Assembly: GCF_000003605.2 (NCBI RefSeq)
Contig: NW_003116463.1
Coordinates: 92,536 to 123,707 of the forward strand
DNA: 31,172 nucleotides
Reading direction: 5' to 3'
Source: Saccoglossus kowalevskii
Taxonomy: Eukaryota > Hemichordata > Enteropneusta > Harrimaniidae
The stretch's first letter is position 1. The number at the start of each line of letters is the position of its first letter. Under the pieces are notes generated by a model. The model worked only from the letters and a program-made list of their open reading frames with translations, made no database searches and had not been told where the DNA came from. Position numbers and translations under genes: made by a program. Below, piece after piece: positions 7,312-31,172 of this stretch.

Positions 7312-7422
<111 letters not shown>

Positions 7423-10030: not shown

Positions 10031-13000
10031 ATGGCGACTAATGACCCAATGTTTGACCCCAGGGTCTTGGCACTCATGGCGAAAGTCGGTGGTCAATCAC
10101 AAGAGGACCAACAACGAGAAGAAGAGGAAAGAAAGAAAAGAGAAATGAAGAAACCAACCCCGCCTTCAGATGTAGATGCTTGGATGAAAAGTGAAGGATT
10201 TGTGAGTGTTGAGTATTAATTTTCTTTTTAAAAAAAAATTAATTGTTGTTTTATTAAAAAACAAGATCCATTTTGGTGCTCTGTAAAATCTTAACTTTTA
10301 TTTGGGGGGGGGGGGGTAAACGATGTAAAATCATGGGAGTGGCTGGGAGAGTGACCAGTGCAATTTTTTTGCAATGTTTTATTTCTACATTTTCCCCTGC
10401 AATTCCATGTATGCAATTTTTCTGTCTGAGTGTCTACTCTTCAATTATTCCAGCCACCTCCATTATTTCAAATAGTCAATCCCTTTGATATATACATATT
10501 ATTTTATTTTTAATATCTGTATTTCTTGTTATTGTGTTGTTGTTTTTTTGTGTATGATTATTGACCATGGCTAATGTATTTCCAATTCATTAATTTGAGT
10601 CAAATAAAATAAAATATACTATATACATACTACATAAAGTATGTGCGAGATGTCATGAAGATTACAAGCAAATTGAAAAAGGTCACAACATCGCAAAAGA
10701 AATTCCATTTCTAAGAATCCTAATTAAAATTAGTGAGTCTGTGTAAGAATTAATTTGCATTCATCTCTGATAGTTTTGGATAGTGTCAGTTTTATTCACA
10801 AATTTTTATTCACATGCATTTTGAATGCCACAATATTCTCACTAATTTATGTTTATGCATTCTGTGATGCTATTAGTTACAAATACGTGCACAAAATAGG
10901 ATCACTTTCAAATGTTTGCAAATCGCAAGAGTTCACTTTTTGTGAGATTTTCATCACATATCACTGTGCATGGTTTTGAAACTACATACCATTACGTTAT
11001 AAATCATTGAGAACATATATTAGGATATATATTGCTTTATTAAGGTAGTGAGATGGAAAGGAAGAATATTTTGACCAATCATTGTGATTGCGTGTTTAAC
11101 ATCTCGTAATGCAGATTAAATTAATTGTGAATGTTGTGAATATATTTTTATGTTCATAAAACTTAATACCCTAATGTGCATATTGCTGATCTGAGATTTT
11201 TTGTGTGAAAATCATTGTATTATTTGATTTAGTCTTGGAATGGATTATGAGATTTGTATGTTTATAAAGAAATACACTGTTATGACTAACATTGAACTGC
11301 TAGTCATTCTTTTTGACTCCCGTGTGCGAAGCACAAAAAAGGAGATTTTGCAGTGAGTGTGTCTGTCTGTGTGTCTCTGTGTGTGTCTGTTCCACTGCTA
11401 TCTCAAGAACCATACGTCAGTTTTTGATGATTGATTGATTGATTGATGAAACTTGATGCATAGATGCTCTGGGCCAATGTGCAGATTTGATTAGGTTTTG
11501 GTAAAATCCATGCATATTAATTACCTAATTTGCATAATGATTAGTAAATTTTTGGCTTTAATTTCCACTGATATATAATCTCAAGTACTAGTCATCACAT
11601 TTCAATAAAACTTGGTACATATATATCATACAACACTGCACAGACCTGATAGTTTTTAGGGTAATATTAGTACATATTAATTACCTAATTTGCATAATTA
11701 ATTAATTTTCAGCTTTTGATATTCCAAGTAATAATCATCACATTTCAATAAAACTTGGTATAGTTACTTAAGGACTGTGCAGAGTCCTGATTAGTTTTGG
11801 GGTAAATATTTGTGCATATTAATTACCTAATTTGCATAATTAGTTATTTCCCCCCATAAGTGTTCCACTGATATATAAAGAACCACTAATTGAATTTTAA
11901 AATCATCATCACATTTCAATGAACCTAGGACTAAGCAGAGACCCGATTAGTTTTTGGAAAATATTTATGCTTATTAATCACCTAATTAAAATAATTAATT
12001 AACACTGATATCTCAATTACTAATCATCACATTTGAATAACATTTGGTACATAAATGCTTTAGGACAATAGACAGGCCCGATTAATTTTGGGTTGAAATT
12101 TGTTCATATTAATTCTCTAATAATAACTCATAGTTTTTTTGTTCTAATCACATTTCAATTAAACTTGGTACATAGAAATTACATTACGCAGGTCTTATTA
12201 GTTTTACACTCAAATCTGTTCATATCAATTATCTGATTTTTTTTTTGATTTTTTTTTATATTTATTGGAATCAAGTAATAATTACATATCAGTGTTACCT
12301 ATCTATTACAGTATCTATTGACAGTGATAAGTACAAGTGGTATACATACATAGTATATCTAATGAAATGATAAGTACAAGTAGAATACAGAGATAGGTTA
12401 TGGCTCAGCAAATTGCTCATTTCTTGAAACAATCTTTTTTAGGTATTTACCCCACTTCCTATTATGCGAGTTTAATTTGCCATTTTTGTTAGCAATAATA
12501 TATTCAATGTATTGAATCAATTATCTGATTTACATACTGTAAAATGACTAATTTTCACTGGGTTTAAATTTCACTGATTTACCATTCCAGGCATATTCAG
12601 TAGGTTTTAAATTCATGTTGTTATAATTTAGATAATGTGTTCTACGTTCAATTTTACATATTCACTGGGTTTTAATTTAGCGCATTTTCCAGTCAGCGAA
12701 ATAAGCAAAATTAAAACCCAGTGGATAATTAATCCTTTCACAGTAATTAGTTTTCAGCTATTCCATCAATATCTCAAGTACAAGTAATTTTGAATTAATT
12801 TTTAATGTGTCTTCAATACTCTCAGCATACGGGAGTTCTTTCTAAGCTTTCTTTGATTCAATCTTGTGATTGCGAAAGAAAAAAACCTGTTAAACCTGTA
12901 CTCTACTGGGAAAAATAAATAAAATATAATTAAAAAAAACAGTATTTTGTTACGAGAAACATTTTTTCCTTGGACTAATTGTTTATTAATATTTCAGGAT

Positions 13001-16000
13001 GAATGGCCAATGAGAGTGACATCAGAAGGACAGATGGGTCTTGAAGATGAAAGAAAAATGATTGGTAGCAAAGATAATATTGTTGATGAACTTCGCAAGC
13101 ATGCACGTATCCTTCACAATTACACTGCTATATAGGTACATGTATACACTAGAATTATGATTGTCCAAATAATTGCTATCTTTATGGCCTCTTTCATGGT
13201 ACGCATACAAGGATTCTCAAAGCGAATATAAGCGCTGGTAGCTAGAGTGACAATGATAGTAAAACTGATACTCCAGAACATGCATTACATGTTATCAATA
13301 TTAGCAACACTGATTCCAGCTTAACTGCTATCTAATTGCTCTTTTGCCCACAAATGCAAACGGTTAGCCAATGTATGCAGGATATGCTCAATTACAGGTT
13401 TCTGTTTTGTTACAATCACCACCAGAAGAAGACAATTATGTCAGCCTCTATTGAAGTAAACATTGGCTTTGTGGCAAATCAATTCATCCAAAGGCTGAAG
13501 TGAGGTGTATTACAATCACCTACTCATTACTTCACTGAAACACCATACCTCAAAACAGTATAATAACAAATGTATATATTGTGATAGTACACTGTAAAGT
13601 ACACAGATTTTTGTCAACACAGGTGGTTATATCTCCTTAACAAAACTATTTCAGCTCTTCCTGTCAATTTGCTGGATGACTTGGAAGAAAAACTAAACAA
13701 TTTAGAAAAAAGGCTAAATGTATATACAACAGAGATCCTAACTGATGAACCAAGAACTTCTAGAATCAATCAGAATCTTTTCCACTCTCCAGAATATGGT
13801 ATGTTTTTCAAGATTTGTCATCTGTTAGGTAGTTTACTTTAGCTATGAAGCATCATGCAAAAATGCACATTATTTGCTGCTATATGTGTCCAAGATTGAA
13901 TTCCTCTATTTAATTATTGCAATACATTGATTTACAGAAACACCAATAGTTATTCAGACAAGTTTATGTAACTTTGTTATGAGGCTATTCTAGGCAGGCC
14001 GAATAAATTTACATTCAAATAACCAGTGTTCATTCCAGTGAAAATCATGGGAACTACTGCAACACTCGTTTCAGTATATGATACACCTGTATATTTACGC
14101 CAGCTGATTGTGAACATTTTTATTTCAGCCATGTTTTGTATTTTTGCTCAAATATTCATAGAACAGATATGCACTTTACATGAATGACCTTTTAAAAAAT
14201 AATCCAGTGAAAACTGAAAAAGTTTAATAGTATAGTGTTAAATGTATTTTGTATGCTGTATATTATTTCTATTTTGAAAACAAAAGCTAAAAATCAGAGG
14301 ATGTTTCAAAACCCTGCCACTGATACAACTGTCATGGATACTACTGATGTAATTTTTTTTTTTCTCATTCCCCTTTTTAAATTCATCATATTTTCCCCAC
14401 ATTCACTCATTTACTGGCTTCTTAAATTCATTTATAATGGATGAACAGGAGTGTCATCACCATTAACTCTCCTTTCCCATTCCCATTCCACTGATCATTC
14501 TCTCACAGGACTAAAGTTCCAGCAAGGTGGGTGATAACAAGCAATCCATCATATCTATAGCTTTGCACATTGAACTGGCATATGGTGTTAGAAGCACTTT
14601 ATTTTTGGCACTGTGTGTTTTTTTGTTTTTTACCTTAGCCATGTTATATGTCACCTGTTAACACAGTATTAGTCATTAGACAACCATTAGGAGTAGTTTT
14701 AATTAATGATAAATATTCAATAGACTTGCTGAATCAGGAAATTGTCAATTAGCAATTTGTAGTTGCACTAGACTTCATACAACTTAATAAATGTTGCTTC
14801 TTCATGTCACTTAAACATAGTAATGGCAAGTCTGAACTACTATAATGATAGTTCATGGCTGATCATGGTCACATAAAATCCAACAAAAAATGAAATAATG
14901 TATGGAATAAAATGTGGTTACCAATGTGTTGATATACAATTATAGACTGGTTTCCAGTCATCAAGCATTGTACAATTTATATTATCTGAATTCTTTCACG
15001 ATGAACTATTGCTCTTATTTATAATGACCTTTATTTGCCACAATTCTAATGTCAATCTTAGCTTCATTATAGCTAGACCTATCTTAAGTTATTGATTGGC
15101 CAAGCTTTTCCTTTCTACTTCAGTTTGCCCAAAGCAGACTGTCTAGTCCTATCCATACACATAGTATTGGCTGACCCATAGTTAGACCACTATTTAGTTT
15201 TCCATACCAAGTTGCCCAAAGCTGGACAAAACTATGCCTATCAATAACTAGGCTAATATTGGTTGACCAATCAGTCTTCAGTCAGGGCTGGTTATATCAG
15301 GACCATACTTGGCCTATCCATATCCAGACTAGTATTGGCCAACCCATATCTGGACCAGTCTTGGCCAATCCATATCTAGACCAGTCTTGGCCAATCCGTA
15401 TCTAGACCAGTCTTGACCAATCCATATCTAGACCATACTTGGCCAATCCATATCCAGACTAGTATTGGCCAACCCATATCTAGACCAGTCTTGGCCAACC
15501 CATATCTAGACCAGTCTTGGCCAATCCATATCTAGACCAATCTTGGCCAATCCGTATCTAGACCAGTCTTGGCCAATCCGTATCTAGACCAGTCTTGACC
15601 AATCCATATCTAGACCATACTTGGCCAATCCATATCCAGACTAGTATTGGCCAACCCATATCTAGACCAGTCTTGGCCAACCCATATCTAGACCAGTCTT
15701 GGCCAATCCATATCTAGACCAATCTTGGCCAATCCGTATCTAGACCAGTCTTGGCCAATCCGTATCTAGACCAGTCTTGACCAATTCATATCTAGACCAT
15801 ACTTGGCCAATCCATATCTAGACGAGTCTTGGCCAACCCATATCTAGACCAGTCTTGGCCAACCCATATCTAGACCAGTCTTGGCCAATCTGTATCTAGA
15901 CCAGTCTTGACCAATCCATATCTAGACCAGTCTTGGCCAATCCGTATCTTGACCAGTCTTGGCCAATCCATATCCAGACTAGTATTGGCCAACCCATACC

Positions 16001-19000
16001 TAGACCAGTCTTGGCCAACCCATATCTAGACCAGTCTTGGCCAATCCATATCTAGACCAGTCTTGGCCAATCCGTATCTTGACCAGTCTTGACCAATCCA
16101 TATCTAGACCAGTCTTGGCCAGTCCATATCTAGACGAGTCTTGGCCAATCCATATCTGGACCAGTCTTGGCCAACCCATATCTAGACCAGTCTTGGCCAA
16201 TCCATATCTGGACCAGTCTTGGCCAATCCATATCTAAACCAGTCTTGACCAATCCATATCTAGACCAGTCTTGACCAATCCATATCTGGACCAGTCTTGA
16301 CCAATCCATATTTGAACCAGGTTTGCCCTATCCATAGCTAGAAAACATTATAATTGTCTTGAAACTCAAGATGAGGAATGTTTTGAGGGCAACTAAAATA
16401 TACAGGTTGATCACCTTTGTAATATTTTTTCCTGTACTAATACTTGGGAGTTACACATTTAAAAGTTGCTTCTGTGGCATGAAAATTGTTATAGTTTAGT
16501 TAGTATAGTATCTACATGTATGTCAACAAAAATGATATATGTTTACTGTGTATGTACATGTTTGTGTTTTTTACTCACTTCGCTGCTTTACCATTTATGT
16601 TTCTTTAACATTGCACTCATCGCTTCACTGATTTATCATGTTTGTTATCACAAATTATTACTCTATTTCTCAGTTATGATCAAAGCTGCTGAGTCAAATG
16701 CCGTGCAGATCCAGCGTGGACGAAAGAAGAAACATACAAAAGATATAAAAGATCAGATTTTAGGTACCAAGACAAGAAGTGTGGAGGTATAAACATTACT
16801 TTAGTTTATCATTTCTATTCATCTGTAGCTGTGTGATCTATGTAAAAAAATGTCTCTATAACAATCAATTGGCTTCAGCAGTGTAGTTAGATAGTTCTAA
16901 CCTCATATGGTTTATTTATGTCTCCAATGATTATATCATTGGTTTTGTTAAATGTAAATATGATATTTCATCAGCCATGCATGGTTTTATTTCCCACTAA
17001 ATGTCACCTGAACACTTGGAGTTCATGCTGTCTGTTTCTATATATTGTGTCAGACAACGTAAACCAAATTACGCAATGAAAAACTATAGTGTATGAATCT
17101 AGGGTGTGTAATTACTGTAAAATCTGTATTAGAAGCAGCGGCTTTTATTGAAATGGTACAATGCAATAGAGGGGATGGGGTTCTATTAGAGCATCTACAC
17201 ATAAGAGAAATGGTGAATTTTTGGTTCTCAGTTTTTCAAAAAAAATGGTGCGGCTTCTATTAGGGATCTGGCTTCTAATACAGATTTAATGGTAATAACG
17301 TAAAACCTTGATATGAGTGTAGAAAATGCACATGATACATGTATACAGTAATTGGCAGCTCACATTCTTTGGATTACTAGTTAACCAAAATTATACTAAA
17401 GTTCTTTTATTGGCATTTTCAGAATGCTTCTTTTCCAGGATTCAATAGGAAAGAACTTACAGAACTTCCTCATCAACTAGAATCACCACAGATTCTTGAC
17501 AGAGTCACACATGCACAGGATTTCAAAGTAAATATCATTATCAAGCTTTTTTGTTTATTTATTTTCTCCAATAATAATACTACCCCTCTTACAATTGAAA
17601 AGTTAGTACTGTGTAAAGAAAAGTCAACTTCTCTCAAACATTAAAGTCCATCCTGTGAGGCATAGTATTCTTAATGCAGTGCAGTATGATGATTGATAGA
17701 TAGAAACAAACTTGTAAATCTCAATAAATAAAACCATGATATGTCAACTTGACTTCTAATGTACTAGAAAATTGTTACTTTTTACTAGCCTGGATTTAAG
17801 AAATTTTGGAAGAAGTTATTTTTGTCTGAGGCATCAGTAGCAGTTATGCAGGATACTTTCTGGTGGTTTTTCCTGAACAGCTGGGAGGTATGTAATTTAC
17901 ACTCAATCAGGCTGTCATGTGAATGCTTTTGATTATGCCATACCAATGCACAAGGGGGTGGTACTCATAGATTTTTGCAAACTGGAAGCAGATTTTTTTG
18001 TAAATTCATCAATGCATATTTTTAGTAATGTTCCCTTGTGTACTATAATAAAAAATGTTGAAGAAATCTACAACAGGCACCAAAATAAACTGATCCCTTA
18101 TTCATATGTATTCTTATGACTCTCTCATGTGGCATTCTTACATGTAGTTTATCAATGTGTATTCCTCTCTTTATCTCATTAGACTGACAGGAAAGAGGAA
18201 CAAGAGAAATTGTTCAATAGAATTGCTGACAGCTTTGTTGCATTGTTTACTAGTGTTAATCCCAATATCAAAGATAAATTTTTTGCTGTAAGTATTATAT
18301 CCATCATATCTGTGTCAATGGATATTGTTTGACACCAGTGCCTGTCATATCTGGTAATATATATATGACTAATTTGACTGTTATTTCCATCAATATGTAT
18401 TGTTTGACATGTGTCAGTCATACTTGTCAATATATATCATTTGACATGTACAGCTGATTTGCAGTGTCTGGTTGATGCATGAGACCATAGTGACTAAGAT
18501 CACTATGAAGTTGAGTGTAATCCATCGACAATGCCAAACCATTACCAGTTATTTTGTAGTTACTTGGATTTGATGGAATGTCATTTATTTTCAAAACACA
18601 ATTCAGATACTGATTTTTTTCCTGCTTGCTCACTTGTTTTGAAGTCAGTTTTATGATATTCCCTGCTTTTAAACATTAGTACATAGTCATAAAAAGTGAT
18701 TATAAATTGTTATTCAATGTTAAAATAGAGACAGTGTATGCTTATTTCAAGCATTGCTGGTGTTATACTTGTGCTTAAAATACTGTCCAGTAAAAATGCA
18801 TTAATTTGTGCATGTCATTAAAGGCACCATTTCAGCAGTGAGCAACCAGAAATTTTATAAGCACAATAATTGTTCATGTTTTATAATAACTACATGTAGG
18901 TGTCACAGAATGACTGAAGAAAGACAAAATCATTCACAAACATCAAGTAGCATTTATAATTGTATTTATGGAACATGTTGAAACAAAATGCATTTCTCCG

Positions 19001-22000
19001 GGATAAAGACATCATTGGAAACAAATGAACTGGTGATAAAGCTGAGAATACACATACCTGCCATGTGTAGATTATTAGTGATGTTGTGTGTGATGCTAAT
19101 TATATTGTTTTGTTACAGGTGTATGCAGACTGTTTAGCACAGTCTATTTATGCAGCATATTTTGAAGCATTCCCCGATTCCCATCAGCAATTTGAAGGAG
19201 TATTTAAAACTGAATTATGTGATTTGTGTCATGAATGGATCACAGGTGAGATGAGTTTTATGTGATATCAGTGAAAAAAATAAGTCCTAGTGTACTTGGT
19301 TAGCAAACCTGGTTCATATGATAATGTAGAATGTTTGTTTTATTATTCGTCATGAGAATATAGTACAGTGAGGGGTTGGCCATTCAGAATTGTGTATGTC
19401 GTGAAGAATCTGCACAGCTGGGAAAAATTTGACAAATAAAATTTACAGGGAACTTACAGAAACATAAAGTTTGTATAGAGAAAAGCAAAAAAAATATAAT
19501 CATGTTTAGAACTAAGGAAAAAATAAATTACAGTTTTTCTATCATCTCCCCTCCCATAGTTTCCAGTGGTTAATCCCTTATAGTGTTGTGTGTGTTGAAT
19601 GAATTGACAGACTGAATAAAACTGTCATTAACTGGTTATTTTGCTAAACCTCAATATTTACAATTTGTTGTGGTAACTGTATTGTAATCCATCTCCTCTG
19701 AGATGTTATAAACATATATTAGTTTGTTGTATTGTTAGCTTAAGTCAAGAATTGATATACTATAAAACACTGAAACATTGGCTAAATTAAATAATATAAG
19801 CTGTGCTATGGTACCAGTTCTAGTGTTTTTATTATACCCATCCTCTATTCAGGTGTGAAACCACAACCACGGTCATGGAAACAGTGGGATACCTACAGGC
19901 TACAACCAAAACATATGGCAAAAGAAAAAGAAGAGGACCTAAGAAAAGTAGTTCTTCTTAAAGATGGTCAAGTCAATAGAGAAGGTATATAAATACAGAT
20001 AGGACTGATGGTTTCAAACTGCACATCTTATTCCACTTCAAAAAATAACATACATATAGTTTTCCCTGATCCATTTAATAGATATGTACTGTATTTGCTT
20101 TATTAGTAGCCCTGCTTACATAACTGACAGAGGTTTATGTCAAAAAAAGTCATGTTTTCAACTTTTACAATAAATGCAATTTCATATTTACTTAAATGCA
20201 CACATATGTGGTCAAGTCAATGTGGGGCTGACAAATGATGATGGAATACTTCTGTCATTCAAATATTGTACTACTATAGGGTAATACATAAAAGATGAGA
20301 AAATAACAACATTCATGTTTTGATTGGTGTTCTTTAACAGCAAGTTTTGCTATTGAGTTTGAACTGGCCGCAGAGGAAGGTGAGAGTATGTATGATGTGT
20401 CATCAGGTGTACAACCAGGTATATCCAGAGAAATCACTCAGATAACAACCAAGAGTGGCAAAACAGCTGCTGTAACACAACCAAGAATTCCAACAGCTGG
20501 TACCAGTCGTCCCAAAACTCAGGTATATATTTCTCTATAAAATAAAACTTTCTATATTAATGCTCCTTTAGAAACTTTGGGGTGGGGTGATTTTTTAGAA
20601 AAATAATTTTTTCCCTAATTTTCCATCTAGCAATTTTTCTCCAAAATTGTCTCTGTGCAGATGGAAACCATTTATCTCAGACATGCATGGACTGATCACA
20701 TTCAAACTTCACACATACATAAAACATCTTGGAATACATATGCAGATTCATTCGTTTTCACAATCTGATTCAAGATGTTGTGTATTTAGTTGTGTATGGA
20801 CATATTTTGTTCAAACTTACCACAACACTGGACATTATGAGATATTGATGTACATCATTTTGTTCAGCACATCGACTTCAAAATGGCCGACTGGTGGCAA
20901 TTTTGCTGTTTACACATATATATCATACATCATGCCACACTAATATTCACAGGCATTTGTTTCATGATTGAAGATGGTCAAATGGTGTCCATTTTAAAGG
21001 GCGACAGTCGTCGTGCCGCGTTCTGTTCGATATGGGACTCATAGCATCATATACAACGTGTGTAAAATACATTGTTTATTTACATGAAATTCAAACACAC
21101 GCTGCGCGACGACCACCGGGCTTTAAAGCTAAAAGTCAAACTGGTCAGTCATCAGCATTATTAACCAGTTGATTGTGCCACAATAACTCAAAAAGTTTTT
21201 ATCCAATCATTTTCAGACTTTTTAGTATACTAATATGTTCAATGTCAATGTATTTTCTGTTCTTTTTTCTGCTATCAAAATTTACCTACGTTTTATCCAG
21301 TCACATGATATAGGTCCAGGTCCTGAATTTGAACGTGTACAATTCAACATCACTGGTAGATCACCACTAGTTGCACATTATCTTTATATGAAAGATTTAG
21401 CATCAAATGAACACAGAGGAAAAAATGTCAGAAGAACTGAAGTAGCAAAACTTCCATATCCTTTAAAATTTCACACTGTATCAAGGGTTTTTTTAAATTT
21501 GTTAACCCACACTCTATTTATTTAATATTTAAATATATATTTATTTACTTATCTAGTTGCTGCATTGTCACTGATTCTCTCTAAAACAGGTTCTAACTAA
21601 TTTTAAACATTAAGAGCTGCAATTACATTGAGTGTTGATGGCAAACAAAAAATTACAAAAAGGTAAATTAAAAATATAACACAAGAACAAAGGGGTTAAT
21701 GAAGTTTTCTTCTGAATTCAAAAGCATCGATTAAAAACTGCTTTAGTTAATTTATTATTCATGTACTGTGGAATTATATACATGTAGATGTGAAAAGACT
21801 GCTTAGTTATCATACAGAATAGAATATTGCTTTATTACAACGTTAAAGAAAATTTGACAATTCTTTTTTGGTTTCTACACATGTAGAAGGTAATAAAGTT
21901 AAAAACAAACAAAACAAAAAGTGTGACAAACAAACAAGAAAAAGTAAACTACTGTGGTAATATTATTTGCTCACTTATTGTATACGCTGTTTTGATATAT

Positions 22001-24658
22001 TTAATTAACCCCAGTAATTGTTGTCTAGTATGGGCATTCATAATACATATAAATTTGTCCTTGTTTTTGATACCATTGATGTTATCAAACAAGGAATATA
22101 ATTCCTGTACATGTACATGTAGTGTTGTCAGATAATCAATACTACAGTACCAATCAACAAACACAGATATACATGCATGCACCTTAACTTTAATCACTCC
22201 TCCAGCACCTACATACAAAGAAGTTATCAAAGAAACTAAAAAAATGGCCAAGACATTGCATATAGAGTACCAGAAGTAAGTAGCATGTTATTTTGGGCTA
22301 TACTGAGCCTGTACTGAAACAGCAATGAGTTTTAGACTCCATAGTATTTACCTTATGATCTTCAAACTCACAATTTTACTTGCATTCATGTACCGGGTAT
22401 GTTGTATATATTTGCATGTTTAATAAATCTGATATAATGGGTCACTCATTTTGAATATCTGTTTTGGTTTCACAACTATTTTTTCAATAGAAACTGGCGG
22501 AATTTGCGTCTGCAGGTCCAATGCTACTTAGCATGTTTCATTTCATTTGCAAACAAGAAGTCATTTACTTGAAAACAGTTTATTGGTAGCAATATTCACA
22601 TTCTATATTTATGGTTATAGAAACTATTTTAACTGAGATTCTGAGATAATTCTATTCCTAATCTCCACACATCTCACAAGTAATTATCAAATAGAATGTT
22701 GGAATCCCGTGCATTGACAGAATAAAGTTGCATAATGCATATGTGACTTAAAACATGACATGGCAAACATTTCAAATAATCTGTATATAGTGAAAAAGTT
22801 AATAGATTTTATAGACACTTTTAAATTACATACAAGGACCAATCAATTATTCGCAGAGTGATATCAAAATATCACATGGTATGTGCATGATGCATGTGAT
22901 AATAATGATATTTCTTTCTAGGATTAGTGAACAAACAGCTAAGGAGCTTGTTGCAATTGAAAAACAGAAAGTGGAACAACTGCGTGAGATTGAGAAGATC
23001 AGAAAACAGTTAATTGAACATAGTGTTGACATGAAGATATTGAGTGAAAAGATTTTGGATAAAAGGGTGAGTCTAAAATATTGGTTATTACGTGTACAGG
23101 GAAAACTGACTTTTGTGGAGGCTGGCATATTCAGCACATCAAATTGAGAGTTATCAGTTAGTTAAATCGAGAGTCATACGTGTTCTTGTCTGGTATATAC
23201 AGAGTGTATACTTTGCATAACAATTCTCAATATCTGTAAAATATTCTCATCACATTTACTGGTATATTTCTCGGTTATCTGAGCAGGAAATGGATTTTTA
23301 GCTTTACTGCTATTCATAACTGTAAAAATTATGTTGCCTTTGATTAATGGCAAATCATATAACCAGTGACATAATATTTCAGAATCCTTCAAATCTGTAT
23401 GTTTTCATTCTAATCAGTGATGGAGTTGCTGCTATTCAACAGCTGATTACAATGTGTCGCTATATTGATCAAATATACATTTTTTCCCCTTCTTTCTGTC
23501 ATGCTTTTTATAAATTTTGAATACAGGGATTTGAAGGTATAATGGCAGTCATGACGGAAATAAACGATGAGGTATTTTTGAACAGGATTGTGTACACTGC
23601 ATGTCTTAGTGAATTTAGGGAGAAAGCACTGTGATTGGTCAGAATATGTGGACTGTACACAAATAATGCATGTACCCAGACTTGCACAATGGCGATGAGC
23701 CACACTGAAATGCACTGTAGTTATTATGTACTAGATTAATCATGGTAATAGATCCAACCATACCATATATAGATATGTAAACTGGTGTTGAATAAGTATC
23801 CAGGTAGTTTGTTAGCAATATACACCCATCCCATTATACTGCCTATACTTCATTTTGTGTTAACAATAAATGCAGATTTGCACTAGAAAAGACCATGATA
23901 ATTCCTCCAACTCATAGTACTATTCTCACATAATGACAAAGATGAATTATAATTTAATTTAGCATGTTTTGATCTAGTTATTCTGCTTTATAAATTCCCT
24001 GTGGTATATTCTTTTTTTTCAATTCAATCTTTTTCTCACTGAATATTGATATTACATAAAGTCCTAATCTGATCCACCGTCCCTGTGTCTGATCTGACAA
24101 TGTGAAAATGACTGAAGTTTTAAGTTACCTAATTTGCTAATGGAGGAATCCAATTCTTCTAAGTTGTTTATTTAGTAGTCTCCTTTCGCACAGACTTGCA
24201 AGATAGTTCAGCAGTCATGATAAAGGTTGTTTTGACAGCATTGTTCCCTAAGTTTGTCTGGAGCAATGACTGACTCAACTCAACAGGTATTTGTGGGAAG
24301 AACACTGTAATGTCAAACCTATTGTACAGTAGTTATAGTCTAGTACTGTGAATATAACAAGTTAGTTCTGTATTTTAGACTGTACTTAGACATCATTTTA
24401 TAAAATTTCTTGATAATTTACTGTAGTTCTTGTATTTTATTGACAGTTCTCAGTTCCTACTTAGACATTATACAAAGCCTTTGTACACAGGATAAGATCA
24501 TATCTTGAGGGACTCTCCATTTATTTGTCATTATTTTTTTTTTTTGTCAACAGGAAAATGATATACCTTTACCAAAACAGATAAAACAAACAAGTCAAGC
24601 TGCCGGTGGCATATTTGGGGATGACTGGTCCTCTTCATCAGATGAAAATGATGACTGA
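10031..24658 (+). CDS. FAM227B: FAM227 family protein (FWWh domain), FAM227B-like, 15 exons
   Basis: Exons: 10031-10201, 12998-13106, 13655-13798, 16674-16786, 17423-17527, 17789-17887, 18183-18287, 19119-19245, 19853-19984, 20341-20522, 21301-21455, 22198-22275, 22922-23066, 23527-23571, 24554-24658. All phases agree and give 1815 nt, 604 residues plus stop. The start is the first ATG of the open frame (ACGCGAACATGG). An acidic/basic charged N-terminus is followed by the family core: FWKKLFLSEASVAVMQ then FWW at residues 238-240, continuing to HEWITGGVKPQPRSWKQW near residue 340 (exons 6-9), the FWWh domain of FAM227A/B. GRSPLVAHYL (exon 11) and APTYKEV (exon 12) are also family-like. Exon 13 is a predicted coiled coil, and the tail ends GDDWSSSSDENDD. 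The biochemical role is unknown. The B assignment rests on convergent adjacency to GALK2. Two introns are U12-type. Confidence is high for the family and good for most exon borders. Confidence 0.9.
11316..12836. repeat. Composite repeat in FAM227 intron 1 with inverted ends and degenerate tandem core
   Basis: The left end reads ACTCCCGTGTG (11316-11326). The right end (12826-12836) is its inverted copy with one mismatch. After a GTGTCTGT-rich stretch, about six diverged units follow. Each carries CATCACATTTCAATAAAACT and ATTAATTACCTAATTTGCAT, spaced roughly 120-170 bp (starts near 11450, 11593, 11736, 11906, 12024, 12146). No coding capacity was seen. No clear target duplication flanks the ends, so mobility is inferred only. 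Confidence 0.5.
12663..12723. repeat. Perfect 16-bp inverted repeat (hairpin)
   Basis: CACTGGGTTTTAATTT at 12663-12678 pairs exactly with AAATTAAAACCCAGTG at 12708-12723, leaving a 29-nt loop. A partial relative of the arm occurs at about 12557-12571. It sits inside the intron 1 composite repeat and may be a small nested element. Confidence 0.7.
13107..13654 (+). other. U12-type GT-AG intron (FAM227 intron 2)
   Basis: The 5' splice site GTATCCTTC matches the minor-spliceosome consensus RTATCCTTT at eight of nine positions. A branch site CTCCTTAAC lies at 13633-13641. Its branch adenosine is about 14 nt before the acceptor TTTCAG (ends 13654), the short spacing expected for U12 introns. Splicing joins a phase-1 exon end (13106) to exon 3. 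This choice avoids the in-frame TAG at 13133-13135, which would end the protein if exon 2 ran on. Confidence 0.85.
14509..14526 (+). CDS. FAM227B: Candidate 18-nt in-frame microexon of FAM227
   Basis: A pyrimidine-rich tract and CTCACAG precede GACTAAAGTTCCAGCAAG, which is followed by the donor GTGGGT. Entering in phase 1 from exon 3 and leaving in phase 1 to exon 4, it would insert GLKFQQ after SPEY and extend the protein to 610 residues. The frame is kept with or without it. Such a short exon could arise by chance, so transcript evidence is needed. Confidence 0.45.
15293..16343. repeat. 26-bp satellite with 182-bp higher-order period in FAM227 intron 3
   Basis: About 40 tandem copies of a unit of the form CATATCTAGACCAGTCTTGG plus CCAATC. 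The array is flanked on the left (about 15070-15290) by strongly diverged copies. Unit variants (TTGACC, CCATACTTGG, CCAGACTAGTATTGG, CCGTATC) recur in fixed order every seven units: TCTTGACC appears at 15411, 15593 and near 15775, each 182 bp apart. Each unit contains TTGGCCAAT, so a CCAAT box recurs every 26 bp. Both strands are open for long stretches because of the repeat, not because of coding. Confidence 0.95.
17113..17294. mobile_element. MITE in FAM227 intron 4
   Basis: A 182-bp element. The left end has TACTGTAAAATCTGTATTAG and continues GAAGC. The right end inverted has TACCATTAAATCTGTATTAG and continues GAAGC. Terminal bases are TA on both sides. Internal GGCTTCTATTAG-type motifs echo the ends. 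No coding capacity. Confidence 0.6.
20994..21126. mobile_element. MITE with TTAA ends, copy 2, in FAM227 intron 10
   Basis: A 133-bp segment bounded by TTAA at both ends. The left terminus is TTAAAGGGCGACAGTCGTCG and the right terminus inverted is TTAAAGCCCGGTGGTCGTCG. It shares the TTAAAG...GTCGTC terminal pattern with the element at 7036-7199 but has a different interior, so it is probably a relative rather than the same subfamily. Confidence 0.6.
21456..22197 (+). other. U12-type AT-AC intron (FAM227 intron 11)
   Basis: The intron starts ATATCCTTTA right after CTTCC (exon 11 end 21455), a full match to the U12 AT-AC donor consensus. The branch site CCTTAAC lies at 22182-22188. The intron ends with AATCAC at 22197, about 10 nt after the branch adenosine. 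Joining gives AKLPPPAPTYKEV, the run expected in the family. All GT donors near the exon end leave the wrong phase for exon 12, so the AT-AC reading is the only one that fits. Confidence 0.9.
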
Positions 24659-25996
24659 ATACTGGATTGCCTTGATGTAATTACATGGCAGCCTAGCCAA
24701 ACCTGGATTACCAACATATGACTGCAGGGGTAACAAAATGCTTTGATCACAAATACCATTTGGAGACAACACAGAAAGCTGTTTCCCACAATGCAATCCA
24801 AAATTATACCTGTGGATGGTGTATTGTTTGAGATATTGTGGATACTATTAGGAATTCACTGTAGTACTGAACACTAAGAAATGCTTAGATATCAAATCCT
24901 AGAAGAAATGTTCTTGTTTGTTTGTTTATCATTCATTTCAATGTTGGTAGATAAAATTATTTACCACACACAGTTATTTAAATCTAAAATAAATTTATTT
25001 GTTCAATATTCAAAGTTTTACAGAATGATATAGAAATATTTTACTCTACTTGAACCATACATCTATCAGGTGAAATGTCATCCATGTTTAATAACCGAAA
25101 AGTCTGTGGACCAGAACCCGTGTGACCCTACCCAACTGAAGTCATGGAAACCCTATACTTTCAGGTTGGGAAAATTCCTTACATATTATATTGTCTACAC
25201 TTTAAACTTTGGCTTGATTTGCTATATAGTGACCTCGTTTGGATAGGGTCAGAGGGAGCGAGCTTGCTTTTTCAGTCTAGGGATACAACAGGTGAATAAA
25301 GCAAATAGTAATGTGTTGATGTATGTTACCAAATCTAACTACAACTCGATGTGGATTTTTTTGGTTCGTGACCATGATTGCATTATGTTTGGTCAGTCTA
25401 CAGCCAATAATATGTTAAAGCTTTCATTTTGTTTTCCAGCAACTAGAAAAGTACTTGACATTATTTTCTTTAATTAATATTATATAATAGTATTTGAAAT
25501 TGTATATAATTTGATTTTATAAATATATTTTTTATAAGATCTAGAAAGCAACTTGTTATTTTTTTTGTTTAACCTATCTTCTCACCAACATTACACTATA
25601 GTATGTCAGGTCATTGAATGTATATACCCTTTCCCTAAACAAAACAGATTCATATTATATATTTCCTGCATAAAAAACACATTGCCATGATATTAAAAGA
25701 GACACACTGAAAGTAAATCAGAATATGCACAGATTTGTACCACAAAATATCAGGTAAGTGATACACAAGTTCCATTAGTCCCACTTTGTGCTATAATACC
25801 AAACAGGTTTAGAAAAATATGAATTTCAAAGCAACATAGTGATTGAAACACTGAGGTCACAGCATGGTATTATTAAAGTCAGATTCAGTGAAAACTTTAA
25901 AATAATGAACGGTTAATGTATAAACACCCATCACAAATAATAATAATATGACACGAGAAATAATTTGCATTTAGGAAATGAAGGGGAAACAGATAA
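24659..25996. other. Convergent 3' UTR interval between FAM227 and GALK2
   Basis: The two stop codons are 1.3 kb apart and the genes face each other. The interval is AT-rich. No independent exon was seen, and the short open frame 25292-25477 lacks domain features. Confidence 0.6.
24988..24999. terminator. Palindromic poly(A) signal AATAAATTTATT
   Basis: AATAAA on the plus strand (24988-24993) lies 330 bp past the FAM227 stop. The same palindrome reads AATAAA on the minus strand (24999-24994), about 1 kb past the GALK2 stop. It could serve FAM227 alone or both genes. A minus-strand ATTAAA variant near 25470 is an alternative for GALK2. Confidence 0.5.
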
Positions 25997-28900
25997 TCAT
26001 GGAATATAAATTGCAGCACCACTGCCAGGCTGAGTTGCAAACAAACTTTCCTCCACTTTGGCTTTCTTTTGGGGATCATTTGCATAATACCCATCATGTA
26101 CTCTGGCAAGGAATTCTCCAACTTTACTGGCTGGAACCATGGAAACTGCACAACCTCCCCACCCAGCACCAGTTAAGCGGGATCCATATGCACCAGCTTG
26201 CCTGAGGGAAGAAATTCAATACATGTATTAAACAATATGATGATAAACCATAACACTGTTACCATGTGTTCAGGAAGGTGCTATAGGAGGTTACATATTT
26301 CACATTTTAAGACAAAATAATGTCATTATTTGCTGCTGCTTTTGTGTACTACTTTGAGCATGTTGTTTGTGAGAATATTCAGATACTGTTTTGAGCAATA
26401 CCCCATGTTATTGTGGGTATTAACCACATCATATTGTGCAACTGCATCTGCAAGAAAATATTATACAAATGTAGTTGCATCTATCAATATTTTTTCTCTG
26501 AATCAGATTTGGAATAAAACACGTCCTGTGTCATTAGTGTCAATTTGTAAGGACTATTGCCAAAACATGAAAGCATAGCATATACACTATACACCGACAT
26601 TGTACATTAAATCACTTGCAAGGGAAAAAAGATGGCTACAGGTTTGCATCCAGTTTTCCAGAGGGCGCTATTCAGTTTTGTTAAATGAACCTCTGGAATT
26701 ACGATACAAGATGACGACTTACTGAGAGCCCTGGGCGAAATGTTAAATGTGTCGCTATTTTTACTGATGATTTTATGTGTCATTTTCCATGACAGTGTGT
26801 GTCATACATCACATTTTTTTTGGCCCCCCATCACATGACTGATTTAAATGAAATGCCAACTACTCAACATTAGCTTTCATGTAGCATTTCAGCATAGCGT
26901 ACCATGTGAAAAGTAAAGGACAGAGGGATACATAAAATAGTAGTCATAGGACTCCTGTGTATACTAAGAAAGCAATCTTTCAAGTAAACACATGGCTATA
27001 CCAAGCCTGGCACCATTTGAGGTTAAGCTTGATTGTACAATATCAAGTTATGTAAATGGAAATTATATAAATGACAAGTGAAAGTCACCTAGTGTGAAAT
27101 TTGGTGTTGTCACAACAGACATGACACTGTTTGTCGGACATGGCCATGCTGGTTGGCCACAAATGTAAATAAAGGATGGGATAGTACCAAAGTCTATACT
27201 TACATACACAAGTTGGTGAGTTCATCTAATTCAGGGGAACTACATTCATAAAGATCTCTGCAACTAGTGTGGCTTTCATTCATCAGGTTGCCAAGCAACA
27301 TTTTGGTATCAGGTGGTCTTTCATCACAGATTTGCTTGAATCGCAGAACTCTATTTGCTTCAGCGTAGACATGTTTGGCCCGGTCATGGAGTTTGAATGA
27401 TGTGACTGAATCATAACAATAGAAAGTTTGATAATGATTACAGTGTGTTTATGACATACTGAAGCTATGAGAAACAGTTCCAGACACGTTTAAATATCAG
27501 AATTTAGCAAATTTGAGGACAAAAAATGGCTGCCAGTCAGCCATATTTAATCGAGTCATAACGAAATTTGGCGTGCATATGTAGGTCATCATATATTGTC
27601 TGTATGCCAAGTTTGAACGAGATCGGTCACAGGGTGTCTCCAAGAAATGGCTTCTTATCAGCCATTATTACATTCCAAAAAAGCCATGCATGGCACAATG
27701 TGGTTAACAAATATTCAGTGAGATTGAAAATGAGATTATATAGACTATTAACTAAAAAAAACAGAGTGTAGTGTAGTGCATTACAAAAACAGTTATGGTG
27801 TCAGCAGCTATCTTTGATTGGATGACTAACTGACTGCATATGCATATTTATGCCATGGTATACGAAGGTTGAAATGTTCCTTTAGGCACGTCTGAAATAT
27901 TCTAAAAAAAATAACAAAAAAAGAAGGCCATTTGAATCAAAACATGGAAACAAAGTAATTCTGCATGCTCAACCATAATACCAAATCTGTAAAATAACTG
28001 TCAATGCTTGTTCAAACAAGGACTGTGGATCATAATCTTATGGTACGGAGTAAGAGCACACAAAGTTTCTATCAACAGAATCACCTCTGGCAAAAGCATT
28101 ATGCAGTGCAGTATTTAAAGAAGATAGAATTATCAGTTAATCTGCAAAACTTTCACATGATTATCTCTCATTGGTTAAATAGCACCCTATTCTGCATATG
28201 CAAAAACAAAATGACCACCAGTCCATCACAACATCAGTAAATCTGCATGTTTAATCATCACAATTATCAATGTATATCTGAGAAAGTTTGATAAAGCACT
28301 GAAATTATGATTATTTGTCATTTTGAATTTAGCTATTTAATCAAAAACAATCAAAAAAAACTTGACATACATCTGTCAACCTATCAACGTACCAGATTTG
28401 CTCCAAATTGGTCAACTTTGGAGGAGTAAAACCAAGAAACAAAACAAAGGAAGAAAAGACATACACCAGTAATTCGGCATGTTCAATGAGCATATCAATT
28501 ATGAAAAAGATTGAACAATGCATGTCTTAAAAAATTACCGGTATATAGCAATGAAATTTAGATTTTTCAATGTTTGTAAAATGTTTGAAATTTGAAAGAA
28601 AAGAAAAGCATGTTTGGGAAATGACTTCAGATATGCAAAAATATAATAAAATGGCAAACAATCTACTATTTTGAGCCAAAAGTAAAAAAACAAGACATAC
28701 TTTTAAAATTAAAATTGATGGCACCCCTATCAAATAAAGTGAAACTATCTATCTGTAAATAATCTGGGTAAACACATGACAAGACAACTGCCATACATTT
28801 TTATCTTGGAATATGGAAGGATATTTCCTGGTTTTAGGGTACTGGTCACCTTCAAGATATACCGTACACGTATGGTATTTTATTGAGATAGTTACAATGT

Positions 28901-31172
28901 CAACAATGTTTATTATTGCATTTGAATGAACTGCATTTAGCACATAGTGCACATACCAGAGAACAGAAGAGAACACATGCGTAGTTCTCAGTTCTGACAA
29001 CATTCATGGTTTTAATTACAATTGTTTTATATTTAAAAAGGTGGTGAAATCCAGCATTAATTTAAAAGAAAAAAAAAGTTGTCAAGTACGAGATCGCTAA
29101 ACAAGACAAATTACTTACTGTGCAGGGTATTATCACTAAGACTCATCTGATTTAGATCAGCTTCACTGACTTCAAGAATTTCACAGATTTCTGATTTCAA
29201 ATATGGTTCTTGATGAAGTATGAGTGTAACCATGGCGATCATATCATCAAGGCTGACATTCAATACTTTTTGCAGATCACCAAGTAAACGTATTTTTTTC
29301 CATTCTAAGCCTTTAGACTTTGCAATTATCTGAAATGTACAATATTTGAGACCAGACAAAAATAAAATGTTGGTCCAATTCCACACAAAGTCCTAGATGT
29401 GAAATAACAAAGCAATCTGGCAAGTTGTTTTAAAGGAGAATAAAAATATTTTTTTTTAACCAAAAATATACACCAAAATGAACAAATCCCAGAGAGAACA
29501 GTGATGGACATGAAGATGAACTGACGCAAGAACAAGAAACAAGTCTTTTGTCTTGGCCTCATTGTCTGTTTTATCAAAGGACAACAAAAAACACACAGTT
29601 TGCGATGTATGCGATAATAATAAAATAATAACAAAATAAAATATAATAAAAAACATCCCAGTAGTATGTATAAAATAAAATATATAAAACAAGTCACTAT
29701 CAATGATGTACATCCATTTGTATTATAGGCATGAGATATTGCATGCTTACTGAGGTGATATCCATAATATCTGTCAACACATGACTGAGATCTGATTTAA
29801 GAATGATGAAAATATGTGATTATGATGACTTTTTGCCTTAAAAATGGCTGTCATTCGGCCATCTTGAATCAAATTATAAAACAAATGCATGTGCATATGA
29901 CCGATATAATGTCCGATATGTACATGTATGTGTAGTTTAAACTACAAGTTCATTGGTCCAAGTAGACAAATCTGAGGTGAACAACATTTTAGACAACTGT
30001 AAACAGCACAATTCAGTGATCGATCAAAATTTTAGAGGGGACAACATTTCTTTATAGTAATTAAAAAAGCATTTAATTTTAATCAGGATGGTTTTTATAT
30101 ACATAACAGCATTATTACCTGAGCTGCTAGTCTGCATTCTGCTACTCTGATATTATAATGTGATGATGCTGCTTTCTCCATGACAACGTTACTGTTTGAG
30201 ATGACAAATACAACACCATTTGGTAATTTCACATCAGTCGCTTTCAATGGATGAAATTCTATATGTTTGGCCTGTAAAGAGAAATCAATTCTATCTATTA
30301 TGTTAGTAATAAAGTGAAAGACAAAATAATAATTCTGACAATATATCAATATTTTATAATATCCATTGTTGCATTTACATGAACAGGCTCAGCTAGGAAT
30401 GAAATGGCTTGGTCCATACCACCGCTTTCTGTACCAATGTAACGCTCACTCCATGTACATATTTCTGCCAGGTTTAACTAGAGAAAATAAAATCAGAGAA
30501 ACAAAGTCAAGAAGTGTCTTAACAATATTAAAACTGTTAGCTGAAATATTCCATCTGTCTGAGATTTGAAATGATAGGATGTATCTGACAGAAGATGTGT
30601 GATCATTGCGGAAATCTGCAAAATAAATAAAACTGTATCTACAAATACAGTAAACACTTACTGTTGATTAAATTATAAATTGTGCTAATTAAAACTAAAA
30701 TCTAGCTACTAATTACAGCTACAGTTAAAAAACACTAAATAATTGCTAAAAATAGAAAATCTGAGATATACTTTCGGAGATAGAATATCCCTCCCTATAC
30801 ATGGTTAACAATTATAAAAACAATAATAGTTCATATTTTGGGGGAAGAAATTGAAAAAATATAAGTTTTGACCACAAAAGAGCAAAAATAAAAAAGTTCT
30901 AGAATGTAAAAATGAGTCAAAATGAAATTGTTCTCTTTGACACAAACTAAAAACTACATAAAAATACATGGAGCTTATGGTATAAACATTTGGGAGTAGT
31001 TTAAGTTTTACTTAACATACCCCCCAAAAAAATATTATATATTCAGTTTTTATTCATACTTCTATGATTGTTACTAACCTTTGAAATCTTGAGTTTATTT
31101 GCATACATTATAATCAAACCAGCACAGCATACGAATGCACTGGAACTAGACAATCCGGCACCTTTCGGTACT
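25997..31172 (-). CDS. GALK2: N-acetylgalactosamine kinase GALK2, six 3' exons, 5' end outside window
   Basis: GHMP-family sugar kinase that phosphorylates GalNAc at C1 in cytosolic salvage. Exons on the minus strand, in gene order: 31172-31079 (open at the window edge), 30477-30379, 30271-30119, 29329-29119, 27405-27204, 26201-25997. They join in frame to 320 residues plus stop. Motif 2, [11 protein letters not shown], is in the first exon. [16 protein letters not shown] in the second carries the catalytic aspartate region. [17 protein letters not shown] and RVAECRLAA follow in the third. [17 protein letters not shown] and [13 protein letters not shown] are in the fifth. [18 protein letters not shown] (motif 3) is in the last. 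The order and spacing follow vertebrate GALK2 (about 458 residues), so roughly 135 N-terminal residues are missing to the right. One glycine of the usual GGGMDQ is serine. All splice sites are GT-AG of the major class. Confidence 0.96.
27520..27680. repeat. Dispersed repeat with ATGGCTG-CAGCCAT hairpin, copy 1
   Basis: Begins AAATGGCTGCCAGTCAGCCA with 7-bp inverted arms. A second hairpin of the same kind, ATGGCTTCTTATCAGCCAT, sits near 27648-27666. It lies in the GALK2 intron between exons 29119-29329 and 27204-27405. A related copy starts near 29841. Confidence 0.45.
29838..29940. repeat. Dispersed repeat with ATGGCTG-type hairpin, copy 2
   Basis: AAAATGGCTGTCATTCGGCC followed by ATCTTGAATC parallels the copy at 27520, including the GCATATG-type stretch further on. 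It lies in the GALK2 intron between exons 30119-30271 and 29119-29329. Confidence 0.4.

Follow-up and report, generated by a model that had tools for sequence, protein, structure and literature searches.

In human, 770 minor introns are reported in 714 genes, of which 50 carry two and three carry three, and about 22% of these introns are of the AT-AC kind (PMC6717393). Clustering of U12 introns within the same gene is given as significant in every one of the 21 genomes tested in PMC7367187, and minor introns are described as biased away from phase 0, with molluscs and one brachiopod noted as relatively minor-intron-rich (PMC10639083). The distance from the branch point to the intron end is stated to have an optimum of 11–13 nt, and the first A of the branch motif may serve as well as the last (PMC3584512).

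The window (i.e., the whole stretch of 31,172 nt that was analysed) carries a FAM227 gene on its forward strand, and the 742 nt phase 2 intron 11 of this gene, at 21456–22197, can be assigned with high confidence, on its motifs and reading frame, to the classical U12-type AT-AC (A-type) introns. It is like the animal introns of this type in its ATATCCTTT donor, its CCTTAAC branch motif and its AC end, and also in having a short branch-to-end distance and a phase other than 0. Matches to some parts of the minor spliceosome occur in its genome, and no feature was found in which it differs. It is, then, a fresh example of a long-known intron class.

The FAM227 gene and its neighbour

A hand-built model of the gene comprises 14 exons (10031–24658, forward strand), begins at an assumed ATG in exon 1 and runs through 589 codons to its stop, uninterrupted by any other. 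Exons 1–4 lie at 10031–10201, 12998–13106, 13655–13798 and 16674–16786. The Pfam domain FWWh starts in exon 5 (17423–17527) and extends over exons 6 (17789–17887), 7 (18183–18287) and 8 (19119–19245), and these are followed by exons 9 (19853–19984) and 10 (20341–20522). Exon 11 (21301–21455) has a coding-like tail and ends in phase 2 at CTTCC/atatcc, while exon 12 (22198–22275) starts with TCCTCC and encodes PPAPTYKEV and onwards. Exons 13 (22922–23066) and 14 (24554–24658, with a TGA at its end) complete the model. Intron 3 contains a 26 bp tandem repeat (ATATCTAGACCAGTCTTGGCCAATCC) in about 40 copies (15294–16342).

The joined 589-residue protein matches FWWh (PF14922) at 4.7e-51 and 173.1 bits (cut-off 25), over positions 2–150 of the 150 in the domain, and on the strength of this match the product is a FAM227 protein, as the initial annotation had proposed. 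The likeness to the FAM227 family is one of shared FWWh domain. Two more Pfam matches of the protein, GDPD (0.023) and SHLD1_C (0.032), are both below cut-off. Compared whole with solved structures, the protein gave no match with an E value of 0.1 or less, and the two found with exon 8 alone (E values of 0.3 and 0.32) were rejected as chance. Searches for relatives beyond the source genome produced 59 pattern matches in contigs of other genomes and 49 in viral contigs, none of them confirmed in either set.

Downstream of FAM227, and tail to tail with it, lies a gene on the opposite strand (about 25990–29400), two exons of which best match the N-acetylgalactosamine kinase structure 2a2c (4.5e-20 and 1.4e-23). 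We take this structure to be human GALK2, and the gene is accordingly referred to as GALK2-like. Human FAM227B presumably adjoins GALK2 in the same way, on the opposite strand and tail to tail, and the window pair is arranged likewise. Given the FWWh domain, and because its neighbour is GALK2-like, the window gene is likely to be the orthologue of FAM227B. The open frame at 29111–29392 shows an ENT-domain Pfam match below cut-off, and is presumably another GALK2 exon.

Intron 11 and competing splice joins

The intron 11 donor reads ATATCCTTTA at 21456–21465, with ATATCCTTT (21456–21464) as the predicted U12 5′ splice site, positions +4 to +9 of which complement the U6atac of the same genome. 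A branch site like TTCCTTAAC is present near the 3′ end as CCTTAAC (22182–22188). Measured from its last A, the distance to the last intron base is 10 nt, just below the optimum of 11–13 nt; measured from its first A it is 11 nt. The intron terminates in CAC (22195–22197), its AC end keeps the reading frame, and joining 21301–21455 to 22198–22275 in phase 2 reads AKL-PPPAPTYKEV. On approximate scoring matrices the donor reaches 13.9 as a U12 site and −14.1 as a U2 site, compared with U2 donor scores of 3.3 to 11.9 for the 11 U2-looking introns of the gene. The initial annotation had placed the intron at these coordinates with the same donor, CCTTAAC and CAC, all of which are exact in the sequence, and its reading of the interval as an AT-AC U12 intron is backed by the motifs and their spacing, by phase and frame, and by the matches to minor-spliceosome parts in the genome.

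The donor alone is not significant, as the window has one copy of the 9-mer RTATCCTTT where 0.97 would be expected; for CCTTRAY, 11 copies compare with an expectation of 16.3. The arrangement as a whole was defined as an RTATCCTT donor, a CCTTRAY motif with its last A 8–21 nt before an AC or AG end, and a join that is open and keeps the frame. The real 975 nt stretch contains it once, and it appears in 0 of 20,000 dinucleotide shuffles of that stretch, rising to 34 of 20,000 when the frame is ignored. When only the intron was shuffled, the corresponding counts were 1 and 14 of 20,000. The combination of donor, branch, end and frame is thus significant for intron 11, the one of the two U12-like introns that the shuffle test covered, and 21456–22197 is the sole frame-keeping U12-like join in the 975 nt stretch under the tested arrangement.

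It had also been claimed that only this join gives the LPPPAPTYKEV run. This holds for the exact run but not in the sense of a sole frame-keeping join, as 51 GT/GC-AG joins within the scanned limits keep the frame, the best being 21356/22206. In that alternative a U2-type GT-AG intron at 21356–22205 would be used instead, joining NIT to APTYKEV with a loss of 108 nt (36 codons). It keeps the frame, and on the approximate U2 matrices its donor (5.1) and acceptor (9.1) total 14.2, a value that falls among those of the U2 introns in the gene. Against this, 100 nt of exon 11 would become intronic, of which a 98 nt tail is open and coding-like: under a codon model trained on exons 1–10 the tail scores 0.341 bits per codon in frame, the two alternative frames giving −0.430 and −0.258, and a score as high was reached by 0 of the 2,231 stop-free draws obtained from 20,000 overlapping draws of the gene's introns. 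The U12 donor, the branch site and the matching phase would also have to be coincidental. Regular use of this U2 join is therefore very unlikely, but it may act as a cryptic or bypass route when minor splicing fails. A spliced retrocopy was sought as indirect proof of splicing, and the C-terminal protein matched only the window's own exons (four of four matches).

U2-type AT-AC introns exist (PMC6717393, PMC3584512 and PMC8280824, as reported there), so that an intron with the same ends might in principle be removed by the major spliceosome; with a donor that fits the U12 consensus and not a U2 donor, and a U12 branch motif 10 nt from the intron end, this is scarcely credible here. Equally hard to credit is a U12-type AT-AG intron ending at the AG of 22204–22205, which lies 18 nt beyond the last A of the branch motif, as that end breaks the frame and AT-AG combinations are described as disfavoured (PMC3584512).

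A second U12-like intron and the paralogous gene

The gene has 13 introns: 11 are GT-AG with U2-like donors and two, introns 2 and 11, have U12 donors. Intron 2 (13107–13654, forward strand) is a U12-like GT-AG intron in phase 1, with donor GTATCCTT and the branch motif CCTTAAC at 13635–13641, the intron end lying 14 nt beyond the last A of the motif. Motifs and frame fit at both 13107–13654 and 21456–22197, in keeping with the earlier proposal of two U12 introns in one gene. Its description of such a pair as unusual needs softening, since two or three minor introns are found in 53 of the 714 human genes and same-gene clustering is seen in 21 genomes; such genes are still uncommon. FAM227 resembles the known genes with two minor introns, two of its 13 introns being U12-like, the one GT-AG and the other AT-AC, and no difference from those genes was noted. 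The phases of introns 2 and 11 (1 and 2, respectively) agree with the bias of minor introns reported in PMC10639083.

A paralogous FAM227 gene on contig C1213 (minus strand) also carries a phase 1 U12-like intron, of 1,828 nt (C1213:258650–256823), with donor GTATCCTT, the branch motif CCTTGAC and an AG end. Its split codon falls three residues before an aligned V/I, matching the window gene as read by eye from the alignment, whose piece there is a weak match on its own (E = 4.4), and the FWWh exons of the paralog follow on the same strand (matches of 1e-14 to 6e-4). The matching G-type intron suggests that FAM227 carried a minor intron before the duplication and, as residue and phase both appear to correspond, the GT-AG minor intron is probably older than that duplication. 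The position of the AT-AC intron is unreadable in the paralog because the C-terminal part, beyond the last matched exon, is hidden in a run of 30,502 N (C1213:213520–244021).

If intron 11 is spliced as proposed, the gene has a clean A-type intron beside a G-type minor intron in one transcript, offering an internal comparison for studies of subtype-selective splicing. Gene-prediction programs built on the assumption of GT-AG introns could get exons 11 and 12 wrong. The full-text literature search returned no paper pairing FAM227A, FAM227B or C15orf33 with minor-intron terms; an existing intron-database entry for FAM227 introns is quite possible, since supplementary intron lists and database tables fell outside that search.

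Minor spliceosome components and predicted effects on expression

The genome (572 Mb in 4,830 contigs) was searched for parts of the minor spliceosome. U6atac gave at least two matches (136.2 and 111.8 bits), and in both copies positions 11–16 are a perfect complement of the TCCTTT in the intron 11 donor. U4atac gave one match (67 bits), and exon-sized matches were found for PDCD7 (three) and CCDC84/CENATAC (two). For U11 and U12 snRNA there was no Rfam match in the genome, in a search that cannot show absence. Of two U12 snRNA patterns allowing up to three mismatches, one had no matches and the other had two, with three mismatches each, equalling the reversed control; an exact 14-mer of U12 snRNA matched twice, as often as its reversed control, and neither locus had an Rfam match. 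The 14 control genomes were silent for all families searched and, as these include the families that match in the source genome, the controls calibrate nothing. Within the window itself, neither the tRNA scan nor the Rfam scan gave a match. In the second U6atac copy (L007 1501–1631) the central stem-loop contains additional bases and mismatched pairs, and this copy may be a pseudogene or variant.

In the mechanism that we infer, U11 and U12 would recognise ATATCCTTT and CCTTAAC of intron 11, the donor's TCCTTT would base-pair with U6atac, and exon 11 (to 21455) and exon 12 (from 22198) would be joined by the minor spliceosome, reading ...AKLPPPAPTYKEV... across the junction. Because the gene also has the U12-like GT-AG intron 2, a full-length FAM227 mRNA would need two minor-spliceosome events (introns 2 and 11). 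Going by human cells, intron 11, as an AT-AC intron, would additionally depend on CENATAC. Actual splicing of intron 11, its CENATAC dependence and any effect on expression are all predictions of this scheme.

The sensitivity of FAM227 expression to minor-spliceosome activity, put forward in the initial annotation, is plausible. Work cited in PMC7367187 holds that U12 introns are not excised at sufficiently different rates for expression to be altered appreciably, and this argues against a strong effect on FAM227 under normal conditions. A broader proposal, which we consider improbable, is that FAM227 was already a minor-intron family when its two genes split, the GT-AG intron being shared, and that the extra AT-AC intron of this copy adds CENATAC control to ordinary minor splicing. 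On failure of the AT-AC intron, joining at the U2 sites 21356 and 22205 would then yield an in-frame protein shorter by 36 residues, and the level of minor splicing would decide which of two FAM227 proteins is made. A switch between two FAM227 proteins sits poorly with alternative splicing of U12 introns being described as almost entirely absent (PMC3584512) and with the minor role in expression given to splicing speed in the work cited in PMC7367187.

Two further features were observed in the window, both upstream of FAM227. An open frame on the reverse strand (1132–1545) encodes an IGFBP-like domain by Pfam (1.6e-6, 29 bits with a cut-off of 28), and a perfect (TTTA)n microsatellite of 27.8 copies lies at 7312–7422.
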